Source: a virus. Taken from it: a DNA stretch of 23,424 bases. The stretch is taken from IMG/VR virus record IMGVR_UViG_3300033148_002444, positions 1-23,424 of that record. The stretch is one strand, 5' to 3'. Below the pieces are notes generated by a model. The model was not told where the DNA came from, did no database searches, and was given only the letters and a program-made list of their open reading frames with translations. The position numbers and the translations under genes were made by a program. Numbering within the stretch: the stretch's first letter is position 1; each line of letters opens with the position of its first letter. Below, piece by piece: positions 4,903 through 23,361 of the stretch.

Positions 4903-5280
4903 TTAGTATTTTCTAGCAGTCACAACTTCTTCCACGACTAAACGACCATCAATTATTGACGGCGAAAAGTTAATTTTCCTAAACAAACCGGAAAATGAAA
5001 GGTGTATATTGACTTTTTGGCGCTCACCTTCTTTAGGGTCATTAGTAATAAGTAGAAACTTATAACTCTCGCCTTCATCAATAGAGAAGCTGCGAGAGCT
5101 TCCTAACGGAATAGTCCCTAAATCCATTAAAACACCCTCGTCGTTATAAACAATAGCGCTAGATATTGCAGACTCACCAGAGAAGCTTAAGTCTACTTGG
5201 ACTAATTCTTTTTGAGGCATTTTCTCGCAAGAAGCTGTGAACATCAATACGACCGATAGTAGTAGTGCTATTTGTTTCAT
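4903..5280 (-). CDS. small lipoprotein, probable moron (superinfection exclusion candidate)
   Basis: A 125-residue protein with a classic signal peptide: MKQ, a hydrophobic run, then a lipobox-like TASC with Cys19 as the lipidation site followed by Glu. The mature part of about 107 residues is beta-rich, with no known motif. It is on the opposite strand to all surrounding late genes and has its own -7 element (TAACTTTG) 4 nt before ATG. A single gene with its own promoter on the opposite strand within a structural cluster is typical of a moron expressed during lysogeny or early infection. Phage lipoproteins such as T5 Llp and TP-J34 Ltp block superinfection; a similar role here is inference only. 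It has no room for its own terminator because the convergent stops are one base apart. Confidence 0.75.
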   Translation of the reverse strand: MKQIALLLSVVLMFTASCEKMPQKELVQVDLSFSGESAISSAIVYNDEGVLMDLGTIPLGSSRSFSIDEGESYKFLLITNDPKEGERQKVNIHLSFSGLFRKINFSPSIIDGRLVVEEVVTARKY

Positions 5281-5284
5281 GAGC

Positions 5285-5292
5285 CAAAGTTA
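5285..5292 (-). promoter_or_regulatory. -7 element of lipoprotein gene promoter
   Basis: On the minus strand the octamer TAACTTTG matches the Bacteroidota -7 consensus TAnnTTTG and ends 4 nt before the lipoprotein ATG. No TTG is present 19-21 nt upstream. Transcription would start at or next to the A of ATG, giving a leaderless mRNA. Confidence 0.45.
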
Positions 5293-5469: not shown

Positions 5470-5541
5470 GGTTTTATAGCTCAGAGGTAGAGCGGCGGGG
5501 TGAAGTTCCGCGCGTCCGAGGTTCGATCCCTCGTAAGACCA
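5470..5541 (+). tRNA. tRNA-Phe (GAA)
   Basis: 72-nt cloverleaf. The acceptor GGTTTTA/TAAGACC has one G-U pair, the D stem is GCTC/GAGC, the anticodon stem GCGGG/TCCGC encloses loop GTGAAGT, and the T arm is CGAGG-TTCGATC-CCTCG. The anticodon is GAA at 5502-5504 and the discriminator is A. CCA is not encoded. The loop is unusual, with G32, G37 and U38, whereas bacterial tRNA-Phe normally has A37 and A38. Confidence 0.85.
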
Positions 5542-5547
5542 CTAAAT

Positions 5548-5630
5548 TGAGATGTACGCAAGTGGACAACGCGGCCGGATTGTAGCTCCGGTGCTTTCGA
5601 GCTTCGTGGGTTCGAATCCTACCATCTCAA
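5548..5630 (+). tRNA. tRNA-Tyr (GTA), long variable arm
   Basis: 83-nt type II tRNA, as expected for bacterial Tyr. The acceptor is TGAGATG/CATCTCA, the D stem CGC/GCG, the anticodon stem CCGGA/TCCGG with loop TTGTAGC, the variable arm GCT-TTCG-AGC and the T arm GTGGG-TTCGAAT-CCTAC. The discriminator is A, and CCA is not encoded. Position 37 is G and 38 is C instead of the normal bacterial A37-A38. Confidence 0.88.
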
Positions 5631-5636
5631 CAAAAC

Positions 5637-5710
5637 AGCAGGGCATGTTCCAAGGCAGGCGACAGAGACTCCAAATCTCCGTGTGAAAGGTTCGATTCCT
5701 TTCCTTGTTG
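5637..5710 (+). tRNA. tRNA-Trp (CCA)
   Basis: 74 nt. The acceptor AGCAGGG/CCTTGTT has two G-U pairs. The discriminator is G, the Trp identity base. Loop CTCCAAA carries anticodon CCA at 5671-5673, and the T arm is AAAGG-TTCGATT-CCTTT. The anticodon stem AGAGA/TCTCC has an A-C mismatch at its outer pair and the D arm (TGTT/GACA) is compressed against it, so this tRNA is somewhat irregular. CCA tail not encoded. Confidence 0.78.
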
Positions 5711-5716
5711 CAAATA

Positions 5717-5787
5717 GGCGGTATGTCCGAATGGCTAGGTGCTGGATTGCAAACCCAGTTATATTGGTTCGATCCCAATTGCCGCCT
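5717..5787 (+). tRNA. tRNA-Cys (GCA)
   Basis: 71 nt. The acceptor is GGCGGTA/TGCCGCC, the D stem TCC/AGG, loop TTGCAAA carries anticodon GCA, and the T arm is ATTGG-TTCGATC-CCAAT. The discriminator is U, the Cys identity base. The anticodon stem CTGGA/CCCAG has an A31-C39 mismatch next to the loop. CCA tail not encoded. The phage genes just downstream are unusually rich in Cys. Confidence 0.85.
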
Positions 5788-5813
5788 CAATATGATATAA
5801 TGAAATTACAGGG

Positions 5814-7602: not shown

Positions 7603-8145
7603 ATGGGATGCGAATCATGCTACACATGTGAAGACCTAGTAGAGCAGCAGGTAAATCTAGACTGCGACCCGTTGACGGGTGTTGTTCCAGAAGTATTATT
7701 TTTTCGGTGCGGAAGCTTACCCACCGATCCATCAGACAACGTAGAGATCGCGAATTTAATTGCTGCGGGTGACGCCGTGCTATACAAGCAATTAAAAGTG
7801 CTGGTTAACGCTCCAAGCGAAATCACTACTGCATCATTAGTTGCGGGCCAAACAGATGGAGTATCTAATTACGATAGAACAGCCTCTTATATCGACGGAA
7901 ATGTGAACTCTACAAACGTAGACGCTTATAACGAAATGAATAGCTCTAACGGCAAAAGATTTGGCGGCGCTCTTCTGTATTACTGCGAAAGCGAGATGGT
8001 TAAGTTCATCTCAACTACAACTCAACTAGTTGGTGGTGGTAATGACGTAGAGAACGAGCAATCTAAATTCGAAGGTGAATTGCGGTGGAGATCAAAAGCT
8101 GATCCTACGCTTTGGGATGCACCTGCGGGAATCTTTGGACAGTAA
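7603..8145 (+). CDS. putative abundant virion protein (possibly tail tube), CxxCxxC N-terminus
   Basis: A 180-residue protein with Cys3, Cys6 and Cys9 (MGCESCYTC) and three further Cys. The C-terminal half ends with KFEGELRWRSKADPTLWDAP, a pattern like the ends of small tail-tube or other structural proteins, but I do not recognise the family securely. It has the strongest promoter in the window, a separate leader and a small size, which fit a product made in many copies. No signal peptide and no enzyme motif. Its stop overlaps the start of the glycosyltransferase gene by one base (TAATG), tying its expression to glycan-transfer enzymes and making it a candidate acceptor. Confidence 0.6.
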   Translation: MGCESCYTCEDLVEQQVNLDCDPLTGVVPEVLFFRCGSLPTDPSDNVEIANLIAAGDAVLYKQLKVLVNAPSEITTASLVAGQTDGVSNYDRTASYIDGNVNSTNVDAYNEMNSSNGKRFGGALLYYCESEMVKFISTTTQLVGGGNDVENEQSKFEGELRWRSKADPTLWDAPAGIFGQ

Positions 8146-8999
8146 TGAGTCGAGGAATCGTACTTTTCGCTTTCGGCCATCCTGACTACTACCGGATGGC
8201 TTACAACATGGCATCAAGCATCAAAGCTACCTCTAGATTGAAGGTAGCTTTGGTGCATGACATACACAACCACAAACTCTGGCCTTTGCCAGAAGAAGAG
8301 TGGAAGGTGTTCGATAAGCGCATAGCATTAAAGAAGAAGCACACCGACGCTGGGCAAATAAAGTGCAATATGTACGAGTATTTACCGTACGATGACAATC
8401 TATACTTAGATGTAGACGGATGCGCTTTAAAGGACCTCACGCCGCTTATGGATGAACTATCTGGTAGAGATGGATATTTCTACACTCAGGTTAACGGAAA
8501 AGGCGGTAAATCGGACAATATACCATACTCGATATGGGCGACAAACGAAACTATCTGGGATTTCTTCGATCTTTCAGATGATGCAGTTCAGCCTGCTATT
8601 CAGTCTTCGTATATGTTCGTGAGAAAGTCTGACGAATCAGCGCCATTTTTCAAAGCGGTGTCCAATAATTTCAATAAAGGGTTTCCGAAAGACAAACTCA
8701 CAATGAGATGGGGCGGATCTATTCCGGATGAGTTGATTTACTCAGGCACAATGGCTCAATTTGGGCTTCTTGACTCGCACGGTGGTAGAAACTGTTACTT
8801 CGGATGGAAAAACAAAGAATCCGTATCAGAGGTTATGAGTAATTTCTATGTATTAGCGATATACGGTGGGAGAGGTCTTGTTAAATTGAGATACAAGGAG
8901 ATGTACGACCGTTACATGCGTAACACTATGAAAAGAATCGGACTACCTCACAAATACAAAGTGTACTCGCTACTAAGATCAAAACACGCTAATGGATAA
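8145..8999 (+). CDS. glycosyltransferase-like protein with DxD motif (GT8-like)
   Basis: A 284-residue protein starting GIVLFAFGHPDYYRMAYNMASSI, the beginning of a GT-A nucleotide-sugar fold. It carries a metal-binding DVD at residues 89-91 in LYLDVDGCAL, preceded by a KCNMYEYLPYDDN segment. This layout resembles GT8-type enzymes that transfer a sugar from a nucleotide donor. No signal peptide or membrane segment, so it acts in the cytoplasm. The start at 8145 (TAATG overlap) is preferred over an upstream in-frame start at 8112, which would place 11 unrelated residues inside the preceding gene. The next gene, also a glycosyltransferase, overlaps by 8 nt. The substrate is unknown: virion protein, DNA or host glycan are all possible. 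Confidence 0.75.
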   Translation: MSRGIVLFAFGHPDYYRMAYNMASSIKATSRLKVALVHDIHNHKLWPLPEEEWKVFDKRIALKKKHTDAGQIKCNMYEYLPYDDNLYLDVDGCALKDLTPLMDELSGRDGYFYTQVNGKGGKSDNIPYSIWATNETIWDFFDLSDDAVQPAIQSSYMFVRKSDESAPFFKAVSNNFNKGFPKDKLTMRWGGSIPDELIYSGTMAQFGLLDSHGGRNCYFGWKNKESVSEVMSNFYVLAIYGGRGLVKLRYKEMYDRYMRNTMKRIGLPHKYKVYSLLRSKHANG

Positions 9000-13351: not shown

Positions 13352-13382
13352 TTGATTTATAAATAAACAATAATTATATTTG
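13352..13382 (+). promoter_or_regulatory. Bacteroidota-type promoter for scaffold/capsid operon
   Basis: TTG at 13352-13354, exactly 20 nt, then TATATTTG at 13375-13382: a perfect match and the same octamer as the promoter at 7491. Only 4 nt separate it from ATG 13387, so transcription should begin at the start codon (leaderless mRNA). Confidence 0.75.
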
Positions 13383-13386
13383 TACC

Positions 13387-13755
13387 ATGGCGACACGATA
13401 TGTAATAGCAAACAGAGGCGGTAAAGAGACTAGACTAAGGATTTCAGACTCCCTAGCTAAGAGTGCGGCTTACATGAACAAGCATCAGCTAAAACTAGCT
13501 CCAGAAGTGCCAAGCATTTCGTCAAAAACGGAAAGCAAAGAAGAGACTCACGAAAAAACAGATGTACAGCCTAACGCTTCGACGTTAACGAACATCAAAG
13601 AAGACACGGTCTCTATGTCGGTTGATGACCTTAAAGATAAGTATGTTAAAGATGATTGGGTACACCTAGCTAAGTCATTAGGCATGATGGGAAACCACTC
13701 CAACACAGGAGAGGAAAAACTTATTACCAAAATCAAAAATAAACTAGAAGAATAA
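13387..13755 (+). CDS. small head-module protein with C-terminal SAP/HeH-like segment
   Basis: A 122-residue protein. The N-terminus RYVIANRGGKETRLRISD is followed by a polar, Ser/Thr/Lys-rich linker (about 45-80) and a C-terminal helical unit (DDLKDKYVKDDWVHLAKSLGMMG...) that resembles SAP or HeH helix-extended-loop-helix nucleic-acid or protein-binding motifs. It is the first gene after the promoter at 13352 and probably leaderless. The stop overlaps the scaffold start (TAATG). It may be an assembly cofactor or an adapter; the exact role is unknown. Confidence 0.6.
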   Translation: MATRYVIANRGGKETRLRISDSLAKSAAYMNKHQLKLAPEVPSISSKTESKEETHEKTDVQPNASTLTNIKEDTVSMSVDDLKDKYVKDDWVHLAKSLGMMGNHSNTGEEKLITKIKNKLEE

Positions 13756-15815: not shown

Positions 15816-15846
15816 GTATTAAGATTTAGCTTTGTCTGCTATGTCA

Positions 15847-15894
15847 GGCCCGTCGATGCTTCGGTTGACACGGGCCACTTTTAAACTCTTTTTA
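15847..15894 (+). terminator. intrinsic terminator after major capsid gene, TTCG loop
   Basis: GGCCCGT (15847-15853) pairs with ACGGGCC (15870-15876), with a TTCG tetraloop sequence at 15860-15863 closed by C-G, and a T-rich tail (15879-15893). Placement directly after the capsid gene would let capsid mRNA exceed that of downstream genes. Confidence 0.6.
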
Positions 15895-15895
15895 T

Positions 15896-16897
15896 ATGTG
15901 CTGGGACAACTTTATAGGCGTAGATTCTGTTTGCACTCCATTCTCGGAGTCAGGATTTAATTTTGTAGATGTTGGAATTAGCAAGTCAGACCTCGACTCG
16001 TATATAGGAAGTGAGTTTTCCACAGGTCAAGAGTTGGCACAGAACAGGGTTGATTTTGCGTCAAGCGCAATTCAAAGCGTTTTAAACACATCTTTTGGGG
16101 GCAAATTCAAGACCACATCCTTGATTGAATCAAAGTCGATTGGGAAATATCAAGACAATCTTGTTGTACAACCATTGATAGCCAATACTTTAAAAGGCAT
16201 CCAATTAGAGTGCTGTGACACCAAGTCATATCTAAACCTAAACCTAACGTCATTAAGCCTTCAAGTTGCACACAACGGCACGGTTGAGGTAATGATATAC
16301 GACTTATTGCAAAACAAACTTCTTGATACAGTCGAAGTTGAAGCGGTTGATGGTGAGATATCGAGAGTCAGCATAAATAATAGCTACCCAACGAACAAGC
16401 AAAAGCTAAATCTATTCATAGGGTATGAGTCCAATTTTGATTCATACAAGAGTTCGATAAGCAATATAGGGTGTTCTAGCTGTACGAATAATTACTGGTC
16501 ATTCTCGTCTAAATACGTTAGGAATTCTGGCGCAACGACACCGTTCGCGTCTCAAAAGATAGACAGCAATGTAGTGTCTTCTAATGACACCGGAGGGTTG
16601 TCAATTGAGTACGGTGTTAGCTGCGACTTTAGTAAGTGGATGTGTTCAATAAAGCATTCGGTCGCTCTTCCTATTCTGTACAAGAGTTCTGAAATGATAA
16701 TGGACTATGCTTTGCAGCAAAAGCAATGGAATTCAAACACCGGAATACGAAGGGAAGACTTGAAAAAGCGCAGGGACGAATACAAGTCAGAATACGAAAC
16801 TCACATGAGCGGAGTACTATCATCTATAAACCCACCTAGTGACTCTACGTGCTTTCACTGTAGCGGCCCGACGGTCACAAGAGTAAATCTGCCATGA
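15896..16897 (+). CDS. cysteine-rich head/neck protein of unknown fold
   Basis: A 333-residue protein with about ten Cys, several paired: Cys2/Cys13, ECC, CSSC, CFHC. I do not recognise a family. Sequence is beta-rich in the middle (VEVMIYDLLQNKLLDTVEVE) with a helical, charged segment near 275-300. Its place between capsid and tail-completion genes suggests a connector or virion component. The start ATG lies in the T-rich tail of the terminator without a ribosome binding site, so translation may be weak. Overlaps the next gene by ATGA. Confidence 0.55.
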   Translation: MCWDNFIGVDSVCTPFSESGFNFVDVGISKSDLDSYIGSEFSTGQELAQNRVDFASSAIQSVLNTSFGGKFKTTSLIESKSIGKYQDNLVVQPLIANTLKGIQLECCDTKSYLNLNLTSLSLQVAHNGTVEVMIYDLLQNKLLDTVEVEAVDGEISRVSINNSYPTNKQKLNLFIGYESNFDSYKSSISNIGCSSCTNNYWSFSSKYVRNSGATTPFASQKIDSNVVSSNDTGGLSIEYGVSCDFSKWMCSIKHSVALPILYKSSEMIMDYALQQKQWNSNTGIRREDLKKRRDEYKSEYETHMSGVLSSINPPSDSTCFHCSGPTVTRVNLP

Positions 16898-21230: not shown

Positions 21231-21646
21231 AAACGAGTATACTAACGTATATTGGGATTGTATTATCCTTAGTCGTTGGCTACGGCTATCTTTTTTTGTC
21301 GCCAGACAATTGGCCTAATATGACCGCTTCTGAGTACGAACATCAATCTACCATATTCAAGGTGGTTTATTTTAGCGCCTCTAGCGGCGTTTCTTTAATC
21401 GGATGGTGTGTTGCTATGATTGTTGTATCAAAGCCCCTTAAATCGGACGCGAGTAGCCTTAATAAGAATTTACTGCGTGTATTCATCGGATACTTAGCTA
21501 CACAATTTTTGGTTGATCTGTTTAACGGCGGTGAATACATCCTATATTGGAGCGTCATAGACCACAGCTCAGCAATATTACTAGTGACCTATTCTGTTTA
21601 CCACGCCTTTAGATTAGCGATTGGCAGTAAAACAACATTGAAATGA
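21221..21646 (+). CDS. multi-pass small membrane protein, lysis-region candidate
   Basis: A 141-residue protein with about four hydrophobic segments: near residues 5-25, 45-65, 85-100 and 110-130. ATG 21221 overlaps the upstream gene by 10 nt; a GTG at 21215 would add two residues. It is followed by a holin-like gene through an ATGA overlap. It may be a holin partner or antiholin, or another inner-membrane protein. No family recognised. Confidence 0.55.
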   Translation: MSLKTSILTYIGIVLSLVVGYGYLFLSPDNWPNMTASEYEHQSTIFKVVYFSASSGVSLIGWCVAMIVVSKPLKSDASSLNKNLLRVFIGYLATQFLVDLFNGGEYILYWSVIDHSSAILLVTYSVYHAFRLAIGSKTTLK

Positions 21647-21849
21647 TATCAGAAGCGATAGGATTAGCGATAACAACAGTTGGGTGTATGATATTGTCAT
21701 TTTTCATCCCTGAAATAGTAGAATCAGCAACGAGTTCACAGCCTAATCAGTGGTTAGAATTCATATACAAGATGACCTCGTTGATGGTTCCGGTGTTTGT
21801 TGCTTTGGTCTGGACCAGAAGAAAAAAGCGAAAAGACAAAGAAGACTGA
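21643..21849 (+). CDS. holin-like protein
   Basis: A 68-residue protein with two hydrophobic segments (about 5-25 and 42-58) and a strongly basic C-terminus (TRRKKRKDKED). Size, topology and the charged tail match class II holins, which form the lysis lesion in the inner membrane. It is the last plus-strand gene of the late series. No endolysin gene is adjacent in the window, so the assignment is tentative. Confidence 0.55.
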   Translation: MISEAIGLAITTVGCMILSFFIPEIVESATSSQPNQWLEFIYKMTSLMVPVFVALVWTRRKKRKDKED

Positions 21850-21901: not shown

Positions 21902-22405
21902 TTACGGTATCATCCCTTCATTTTCATTTAATTCAGACAATGCTTTCTGGTACGCTATAGATGCGGATAATTCATCTGAAAACGAACCTAAGTACTTCTT
22001 TTTCTTTCCGATTCGAATATAGGAAACCCAATTGCTCCTTCTGGATTCCCAGCTAACCCCTATATACTTACTTGACCCCCTGCGGCGATCTTTTGAGCAG
22101 TTCTCTCGATTAGACAATAACTGTAAATTATCCAATCGGTTGTTTGTGGGGTTGTTGTCGATATGGTCAACGACCACTTTCATCCCACAAGGCACATGAC
22201 CCAAGAAAGCCATAGCGACAAGCTGATGCGTTTGTATCAGCCTTCCTGAAACACCATTTGATAGCCATATTTGAGTCTTTCCGCCTCTAGCCTTCTTACC
22301 TCTAATAATCCTTGGGGTTTTGCCGTGAAACGATCGGACCCTCCCCATGTTAGACACTTGATAAAATCCTTCGTATTGAGGAATGTCTTTAAATATTTCC
22401 TTCAT
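21902..22405 (-). CDS. free-standing homing-type endonuclease, NUMOD4-HNH-AP2
   Basis: A 167-residue protein with three modules in order: NUMOD4-like (EIFKDIPQYEGFYQVSNMGRVRS, residues ~3-25), HNH nuclease (HQLVAMAFLG ... DHIDNNPTNNRLDNLQLLSNREN, ~75-110) and an AP2-like DNA-binding unit (YIGVSWESRRSNWVSYI ... KKYLGSF, ~120-150). This is the standard layout of phage-borne HNH homing endonucleases, which nick or cut DNA of related phages lacking the gene. The start is placed at the ATG at 22403-22405, where NUMOD4 begins; the frame runs open to a GTG at 22531 but those 42 residues are unlike the family. On the minus strand next to plus-strand lysis genes, it is probably a selfish insertion. 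Confidence 0.85.
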   Translation of the reverse strand: MKEIFKDIPQYEGFYQVSNMGRVRSFHGKTPRIIRGKKARGGKTQIWLSNGVSGRLIQTHQLVAMAFLGHVPCGMKVVVDHIDNNPTNNRLDNLQLLSNRENCSKDRRRGSSKYIGVSWESRRSNWVSYIRIGKKKKYLGSFSDELSASIAYQKALSELNENEGMIP

Positions 22406-22440
22406 AATGTTTTTAACGAAAAACCCCGATAACCTTAGCC

Positions 22441-22497
22441 GTGTAGGATGGCATCGAGTTAACGAGGTTTCATTATAAATTCTTAGGGTTCCTACAC
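22441..22497. repeat. 8-bp inverted repeat upstream of HNH gene
   Basis: GTGTAGGA (22441-22448) and TCCTACAC (22490-22497) are perfect inverted copies around a 41-nt loop, in the leader of the minus-strand HNH gene. In the minus-strand RNA a loop AACC could also pair with a GGTT after the stem, a possible pseudoknot. Confidence 0.35.
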
Positions 22498-22543: not shown

Positions 22544-22588
22544 GCTTGTGACAACAAGTAGGTGTAATCGCGTACAAATGTCACAAGC
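22544..22588. repeat. 10-bp inverted repeat, operator candidate
   Basis: GCTTGTGACA (22544-22553) and TGTCACAAGC (22579-22588) are perfect inverted copies, 35 bp from centre to centre. The left copy also overlaps a compact palindrome CTTGT-GACA-ACAAG (22545-22558). It sits in the divergent gap between the HNH gene and the 22609 gene. Confidence 0.6.
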
Positions 22589-22612
22589 ATAATGCTTAGA
22601 TTTGCATTATGC
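22587..22612. repeat. 9-bp inverted repeat across -7 element and start codon
   Basis: GCATAATGC (22587-22595) and GCATTATGC (22604-22612) flank TTAGATTT. The repeat encloses the -7 element and includes the ATG of the next gene, so a protein bound here would exclude RNA polymerase. Confidence 0.6.
22597..22604 (+). promoter_or_regulatory. -7 element for the 22609 gene
   Basis: TAGATTTG matches TAnnTTTG and lies 4 nt before ATG 22609, predicting a leaderless mRNA. No TTG at the expected -33 distance; the right arm of the 10-bp inverted repeat covers that area, hinting at regulated or activator-dependent use. Confidence 0.5.
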
Positions 22613-22794
22613 GCAGCAGGTGGCAACGTCTTAAAAGGTACATAGTTATAGGCTTAGTTGTCACCTATTACAATCCAAAGATCATACTAAACCCCAAGAC
22701 TGCTCTACTGTTTGTTGTGTGGTTCTTTGATGATGTTTATCGGGTTCTTAGAGTCTTTTTTTTAGCTCTATATCTTCTTTGCGATTCTAATTAA
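22609..22794 (+). CDS. small basic membrane protein, probably leaderless
   Basis: A 61-residue protein with a basic start (RSRWQRLKR), then two hydrophobic segments (about 11-20 and 33-57) rich in aromatic residues. No known family. It is the first gene to the right of the control region and its 3' end overlaps the convergent 38-residue gene by 27 nt. Possible roles include membrane exclusion or host takeover, but nothing specific is shown. Confidence 0.5.
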   Translation: MRSRWQRLKRYIVIGLVVTYYNPKIILNPKTALLFVVWFFDDVYRVLRVFFLALYLLCDSN

Positions 22795-23121: not shown

Positions 23122-23361
23122 CTACTGATTAACAAATTCTATAACACCTGAATCGAACCTATCAATCAACCTCACCTCTTCGTTGTAGTAGTGGTGTCCG
23201 GTTACGTCTTTGACATACACGTTTCGAGTTATCAAATACTTGTCAAGCTCTTTCCATCTGAATATTGTGGTCAAGTGCTTTCCGCTTATTAGAGACAGTT
23301 CGTTTGGTGTTACAAACCTCTTGTCTTTTAAGCTGCTCCTGTCTTTTTTGTATCTTCCCAT
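23122..23361 (-). CDS. small HTH DNA-binding protein, excisionase/MerR-like
   Basis: A 79-residue protein. Residues about 16-60 fit a short helix-turn-helix with wing: VTPNELSLISGKHLTTIFRWKE (HTH), then a beta wing with KDVTGHHYYNEEV. The layout (start of HTH at 'TP-E-A/L' and Arg-Trp at the recognition helix end) is like phage excisionase or MerR-type regulators. It may regulate phage genes or assist recombination. It starts one base after the upstream stop (TAG-A-ATG), so it belongs to a minus-strand operon entering from the right. Confidence 0.6.
   Translation of the reverse strand: MGRYKKDRSSLKDKRFVTPNELSLISGKHLTTIFRWKELDKYLITRNVYVKDVTGHHYYNEEVRLIDRFDSGVIEFVNQ

Follow-up and report, generated by a model that had tools for sequence, protein, structure and literature searches.

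Gene content and inverted repeats at the end of the late block

The window, by which we mean the whole stretch of DNA analysed, is the complete IMG/VR record IMGVR_UViG_3300033148_002444 of 23,424 bases. It carries a siphovirus structural block that includes the tape measure protein, the portal and further head and tail genes, amid which lie four adjoining tRNA genes (Phe, Tyr, Trp and Cys; 5470-5788). The sequence points to a Bacteroidota-type siphovirus as the origin of the contig, the host being suggested by a remote match of the portal to a Flavobacterium phage, by non-coding TAnnTTTG elements and by the spacing of these elements. Apart from this remote Flavobacterium portal protein, tblastn searches of phage records returned no relative.

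The structural genes form a late block, and the last gene of the late operon (21643..21849, plus strand) encodes a hydrophobic protein of 68 aa whose only holin match, to phrog_6918, was weak and below threshold (E=0.043); this gene is a possible source of read-through RNA. It is followed by a free-standing HNH endonuclease gene on the minus strand (21902..22405; NUMOD4 and HNH_3, with a weak AP2 match under its cut-off), placed downstream of the late operon and ahead of the control region described below. The ATG of the HNH gene is itself folded into a stem in its 5' leader (22396-22480, minus strand; UUUAUAAUG / CAUUAUGAA), a statistically weak structure (z -1.3) that recalls hairpin-controlled homing endonuclease genes. 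At the end of the block lies a gene for a small hydrophobic protein of 61 aa with a conserved DD[VI]Y.VLR.FF motif and a putatively leaderless start (22609..22794, plus strand). Its place after the possible, sub-threshold holin gene suggests a membrane or lysis-related role.

Homologues of the small gene were sought across viral and genome contig collections, and the gene was found in a single related contig, IMGVR_UViG_3300033141_000944 (L001), which shares 61-70% protein identity with the window across several structural genes. The late operon of L001 ends with a syntenic homologue (E 1.3e-4 when that record was searched) in which 17 of 61 columns are invariant, including QRL and DD.Y.VLR.FF. 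The L001 protein terminates at FF while the window protein continues for 10 residues; at 22752-22766 the window has a run of 8 T against 7 T in L001, and the frame shifts just past FF, a difference that may stem from an indel, from slippage or from faulty assembly. Among the other candidates, L002, L004 and L005 were rejected as homologous loci, since they have one structural protein in common and their downstream genes differ; L007 and the other 28 stretches from a relaxed motif scan were attributed to chance, the L011 contig has the head gene and ends short of the region, and L012 is remote.

Upstream of and over the start of the small gene, direct reading and an exhaustive scan recovered both inverted repeats and the compact palindrome that an earlier note had described, all at the place given there. 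The first repeat, P1, has 10-bp arms and a loop of 25 (22544-22553 GCTTGTGACA / 22579-22588 TGTCACAAGC, plus strand) and contains the palindrome CTTGT-GACA-ACAAG (22545-22558, arms 22545-22549 and 22554-22558, plus strand), whose 5-bp inner symmetry is partly identical with the left arm of P1. The second, P2, has 9-bp arms and a loop of 8 (22587-22595 GCATAATGC / 22604-22612 GCATTATGC, plus strand), and it encloses both the -7 element TAGATTTG and the ATG at 22609. The window contains 4 perfect repeats of at least 9 bp with a loop of at most 30, where shuffled sequences contain 2.3, and 3 of at least 10 bp, where they contain 0.6; as these counts are close to the shuffled expectation, neither repeat is remarkable by itself. 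A repeat of at least 10 bp together with one of at least 9 bp within 75 bp was found in 1 of 300 shuffled genomes, and what is unusual is the clustering of the repeats and their position over a start codon. The other two long inverted repeats of the window (7755-7796 and 8222-8252) both lie within coding sequence. The half-sites TTGTGACA and GCATAATGC, which the earlier note had proposed to look for elsewhere, are not enriched in the rest of the window; TTGTGACA occurs 3 times in 23 kb, twice at this locus. A possible third stem, P3 (GGUGGCAAC / GUUGUCACC; 22620..22665, plus strand), lies within the coding region and has a counterpart GACAAC/GUUGUC in L001, a conservation that may merely reflect the protein (QRL, VVT). 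Rfam returned nothing at the locus, a CopA-like match at 22415-22495 on the minus strand being far under threshold.

Promoter element and start codon of the small gene

The -7 element TAGATTTG (22597..22604, plus strand; consensus TAnnTTTG) lies 4 nt ahead of the ATG. In Flavobacterium johnsoniae transcription starts 4-5 nt past the -7 element TAnnTTTG (PMC6847099), and by this spacing the arrangement TAGATTTG-N4-ATG makes the A of the ATG at 22609 the expected +1. The claim that a control region with a leaderless promoter lies here, within an inverted repeat and between divergent genes, is supported, and as an architecture the predicted leaderless promoter is well supported by the sequence. 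If the A of the ATG is taken as +1, the locus has the TAnnTTTG 4-5 nt upstream that is expected of a Bacteroidota sigma-A promoter. The stricter form TAHHTTTG, with no G at bases 3 and 4, does not fit, as both TAGATTTG and its L001 counterpart TAGCTTTG carry G at base 3, which is almost absent from the mapped F. johnsoniae promoters (PMC6847099). A -33 TTTG/TTG about 20 nt upstream is absent at 22609 and at its L001 homologue; it is present at the gene starting at 13387 and at the homologue of that gene. The -33 element is also weak in the mapped F. johnsoniae promoters (PMC6847099). Because of the G at base 3 and the missing -33 TTG, the promoter may be weak or activator-dependent.

Within the window TAnnTTTG stands exactly 4 nt ahead of an ATG at 13387, at 5280 (minus strand) and at 22609, and in L001 the spacing is 5 at the homologue of 13387 and 3 at that of 22609. 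Across eight Bacteroidota phages 10 of 30 TAnnTTTG-ATG pairs had a spacing of 4-5 nt (P about 5e-5), and the six other Bacteroidota phages alone gave 6 of 24 (P about 0.008), as compared to none of four in the control, the Pectobacterium phage JX195166. The recurrence of TAnnTTTG-N4/5-ATG in several Bacteroidota phages is of practical help in locating starts and promoters in these phages, which are poorly annotated. Mapped transcripts of F. johnsoniae are mostly leadered, with leaders of more than 10 nt on 87% of those assigned to a promoter (PMC6847099). Our literature search on leaderless genes of Flavobacterium phages found no paper, and one on crAss found nothing relevant.

Besides the start at 22609, starts of the leaderless type were noted in the window at 13375-13387 and 5280-5292 (minus strand), and in other phages at L044 1757, 5260 and 13709, L045 31658 (minus strand), L047 40311 (minus strand) and L049 40973, one of them belonging to a terminase gene. 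At 15827-15890 of the window, the leader of the gene at 15896 contains the letters TAGCTTTG and, after them, a GC-rich stem (GGCCCGT...ACGGGCC).

The predicted start hairpin in the window and in L001

In L001 the ATG of the small gene lies 87 nt past the last late gene with a same-strand operon directly upstream, and the HNH gene is missing at this place. Here TAGCTTTG-TAC-ATG is enclosed by TTGGGTAGC-(9)-GCTACCTAA, which form a stem analogous to P2 whose 9 bp include one G-U pair (around L001:9693-9706). The stems of the window and L001 have no common arm sequence, and measured from the -7 element their positions differ by about 6 bp. In spite of this, each of them encloses the stretch from TTTG to ATG. 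At the L001 start the A and U of the AUG fall in the loop and the G alone is paired, and the -7 element is separated from the ATG by 3 nt, not 4-5. P1 is conserved in L001 neither in sequence nor in position relative to the promoter, and L001 has a stem of its own, CGTTTGC/GCAAACG. This conservation argument draws on one homologue, two genomes being compared.

Local folding of 40 gene starts (24 from the window, 16 from L001) showed the two homologous starts to be by far the most structured. The folding energy was -13.4 kcal/mol at 22609 against -8.0 for the next-best window start, and -12.3 kcal/mol at the L001 homologue against -7.0 for the next-best L001 start. When the flanks were randomised around a fixed core, the start hairpin gave P = 0.001 in the window and P = 0.01 in L001, which is an independent test. 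In the window the three AUG bases have a predicted unpaired probability of 0.02-0.06 in read-through RNA (94-98% paired) and of 0.57-0.99 in leaderless RNA. A stable stem covering the translation start in long transcripts, as at T4 gene e, is thus predicted in both phages, and by motif and spacing transcription from the promoter would start within the 5' arm or beyond it, leaving short transcripts without that arm.

A comparable layout was noted in Flavobacterium phage 6H (L045, KC959568), which had been fetched solely for the spacing test. There, at 31045-31120 on the minus strand, TACTTTTG and an ATG are enclosed by the near-perfect stem TTTCATGCGCTTTTAcTTTTggtaAAAAtAAAAGCGTATGAAA of -19 kcal/mol (top 0.15% of that genome), at the start of a 105-aa gene (30744-31061, minus strand) lying two genes ahead of the amidase. 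Its product has one hydrophobic stretch followed by a probable coiled coil and looks spanin-like by eye. As the spacing in 6H is 16, the message would have a short leader and would not be leaderless, and as all matching 6H records are identical there, 6H is an independent instance and not a covariation test. From its sequence, 6H shows a similar predicted layout on an unrelated gene.

A proposed start-codon lock and its alternatives

We propose, with a probability of about 0.52, that the 9-bp repeat acts as a translational lock of the T4 gene e type over an internal leaderless promoter. RNA of the late operon would read through from upstream into the 22609 gene and carry both arms, which would pair, bury the start codon and block the ribosome. 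RNA from the TAGATTTG promoter would start at or beside the A of the ATG, lack the 5' arm and be translated as a leaderless message. Messages from far upstream would probably be silent and only those begun within the repeat translated. With escape from the hairpin reserved for the leaderless RNA, synthesis of the small hydrophobic protein would require its own promoter to be active and would not simply accompany transcription of the late operon. In the window the read-through is uncertain, since an antisense HNH gene separates the control region from the late operon. The lock is favoured because the stem holds its place over the start codon while its letters change; arms and register that differ in L001 are expected of a start-codon hairpin, not of a site read by one conserved repressor, and the G-U pair of the L001 stem is tolerated by RNA and not by a DNA palindrome.

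The locus had earlier been read as a phage switch or early operator region. In the general form of this explanation, which we consider unlikely, the repeats would be bound by a dimeric regulator of phage or host origin, with repression through P2, which overlaps the -7 element, and either repression or activation through P1, with its right arm at -30 to -21. Symmetric sites do overlap a promoter that has no -33 TTG, and two of the three copies of TTGTGACA in 23 kb are at this locus. Against this, the arms are wholly different in L001 and, with respect to the -7 element, the symmetry centre has moved by about 6 bp, P1 is kept there neither in place nor in sequence, and half-sites are not enriched elsewhere in this partial contig. 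An early operator further fits poorly with a late block, a gene at the end of that block and repeats that have no further copies. For the nearby gene taken for an HTH regulator (23122-23361), neither Pfam nor PHROG gave a significant match, the modelled structure (pLDDT 42) was uninformative, and no homologue was found in the L001 contig. In this partial contig neither the repeated operator copies nor the neighbouring repressor gene of a repressor operator region were found. P1 may nonetheless have an operator role.

That the repeats are short inverted repeats arising by chance in AT-rich intergenic DNA, conspicuous through their overlap with a start codon, appears quite improbable to us. About 2 repeats of such length are expected per genome of this size and only two genomes were compared, but the cluster arose in 1 of 300 shuffles, a different hairpin stands independently at the homologous L001 start (P=0.01), and both starts are outliers among the 40. 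We give very little weight to the stems being 3'-end or processing structures of the late operon (a terminator or an RNase III site) whose overlap with the start is secondary. The stems are stable and in L001 two of them directly follow the last late gene; however, the terminator scan lists no stem of this region, the stems over the start lack a following T-run, and the window stems lie about 690 bp beyond the last late gene, past the HNH gene.

Comparison with known systems

In operator and switch regions of the lambda type, divergent genes flank a promoter that is overlaid by inverted repeats. The window likewise has inverted repeats over its promoter and divergent genes, but it has no repeated operator set or recognisable repressor gene, and the arrangement is not conserved in sequence in L001. 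The promoter resembles the Bacteroidota sigma-A promoter in its TAnnTTTG and the 4 nt to the expected start site, and differs from it in the G at base 3 of the -7 element, the lack of a -33 TTG and the ATG at +1 (PMC6847099, PMC9723704). Phage T4 uses a start hairpin to silence gene e and several homing endonuclease genes on long early transcripts; transcripts from a late promoter omit the 5' arm, and on these the genes are freed (PMC3014915, PMC2988022). Like gene e and I-TevI, segB and mobE, the window has a stem over the translation start and a promoter whose predicted transcripts lack the 5' arm (PMC3014915, PMC2988022). As with gene e, the gene would lie downstream in a longer transcription unit, and similar leader structures are predicted in relatives. 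What is hidden in the T4 genes is a Shine-Dalgarno ribosome binding site; in the window it is the start codon that the stem covers, and a leaderless message would arise from a promoter of Bacteroidota type, with a late instead of an early unit upstream. Initiation in Bacteroidota does without Shine-Dalgarno pairing, and therefore the classical phage device of hiding the ribosome binding site would be unworkable there in the usual way. We put forward tentatively, as something possible rather than probable, that Bacteroidota phages may have their own version of the T4 gene e lock, made from their own promoter type and (here) leaderless translation, which would keep selected genes of the late or lysis region silent on read-through RNA and would recur on unrelated genes, in the window and L001 on the one hand and in 6H on the other. 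If the start codon is hidden and the escape product is leaderless, the same timing logic would have been rebuilt from different parts.
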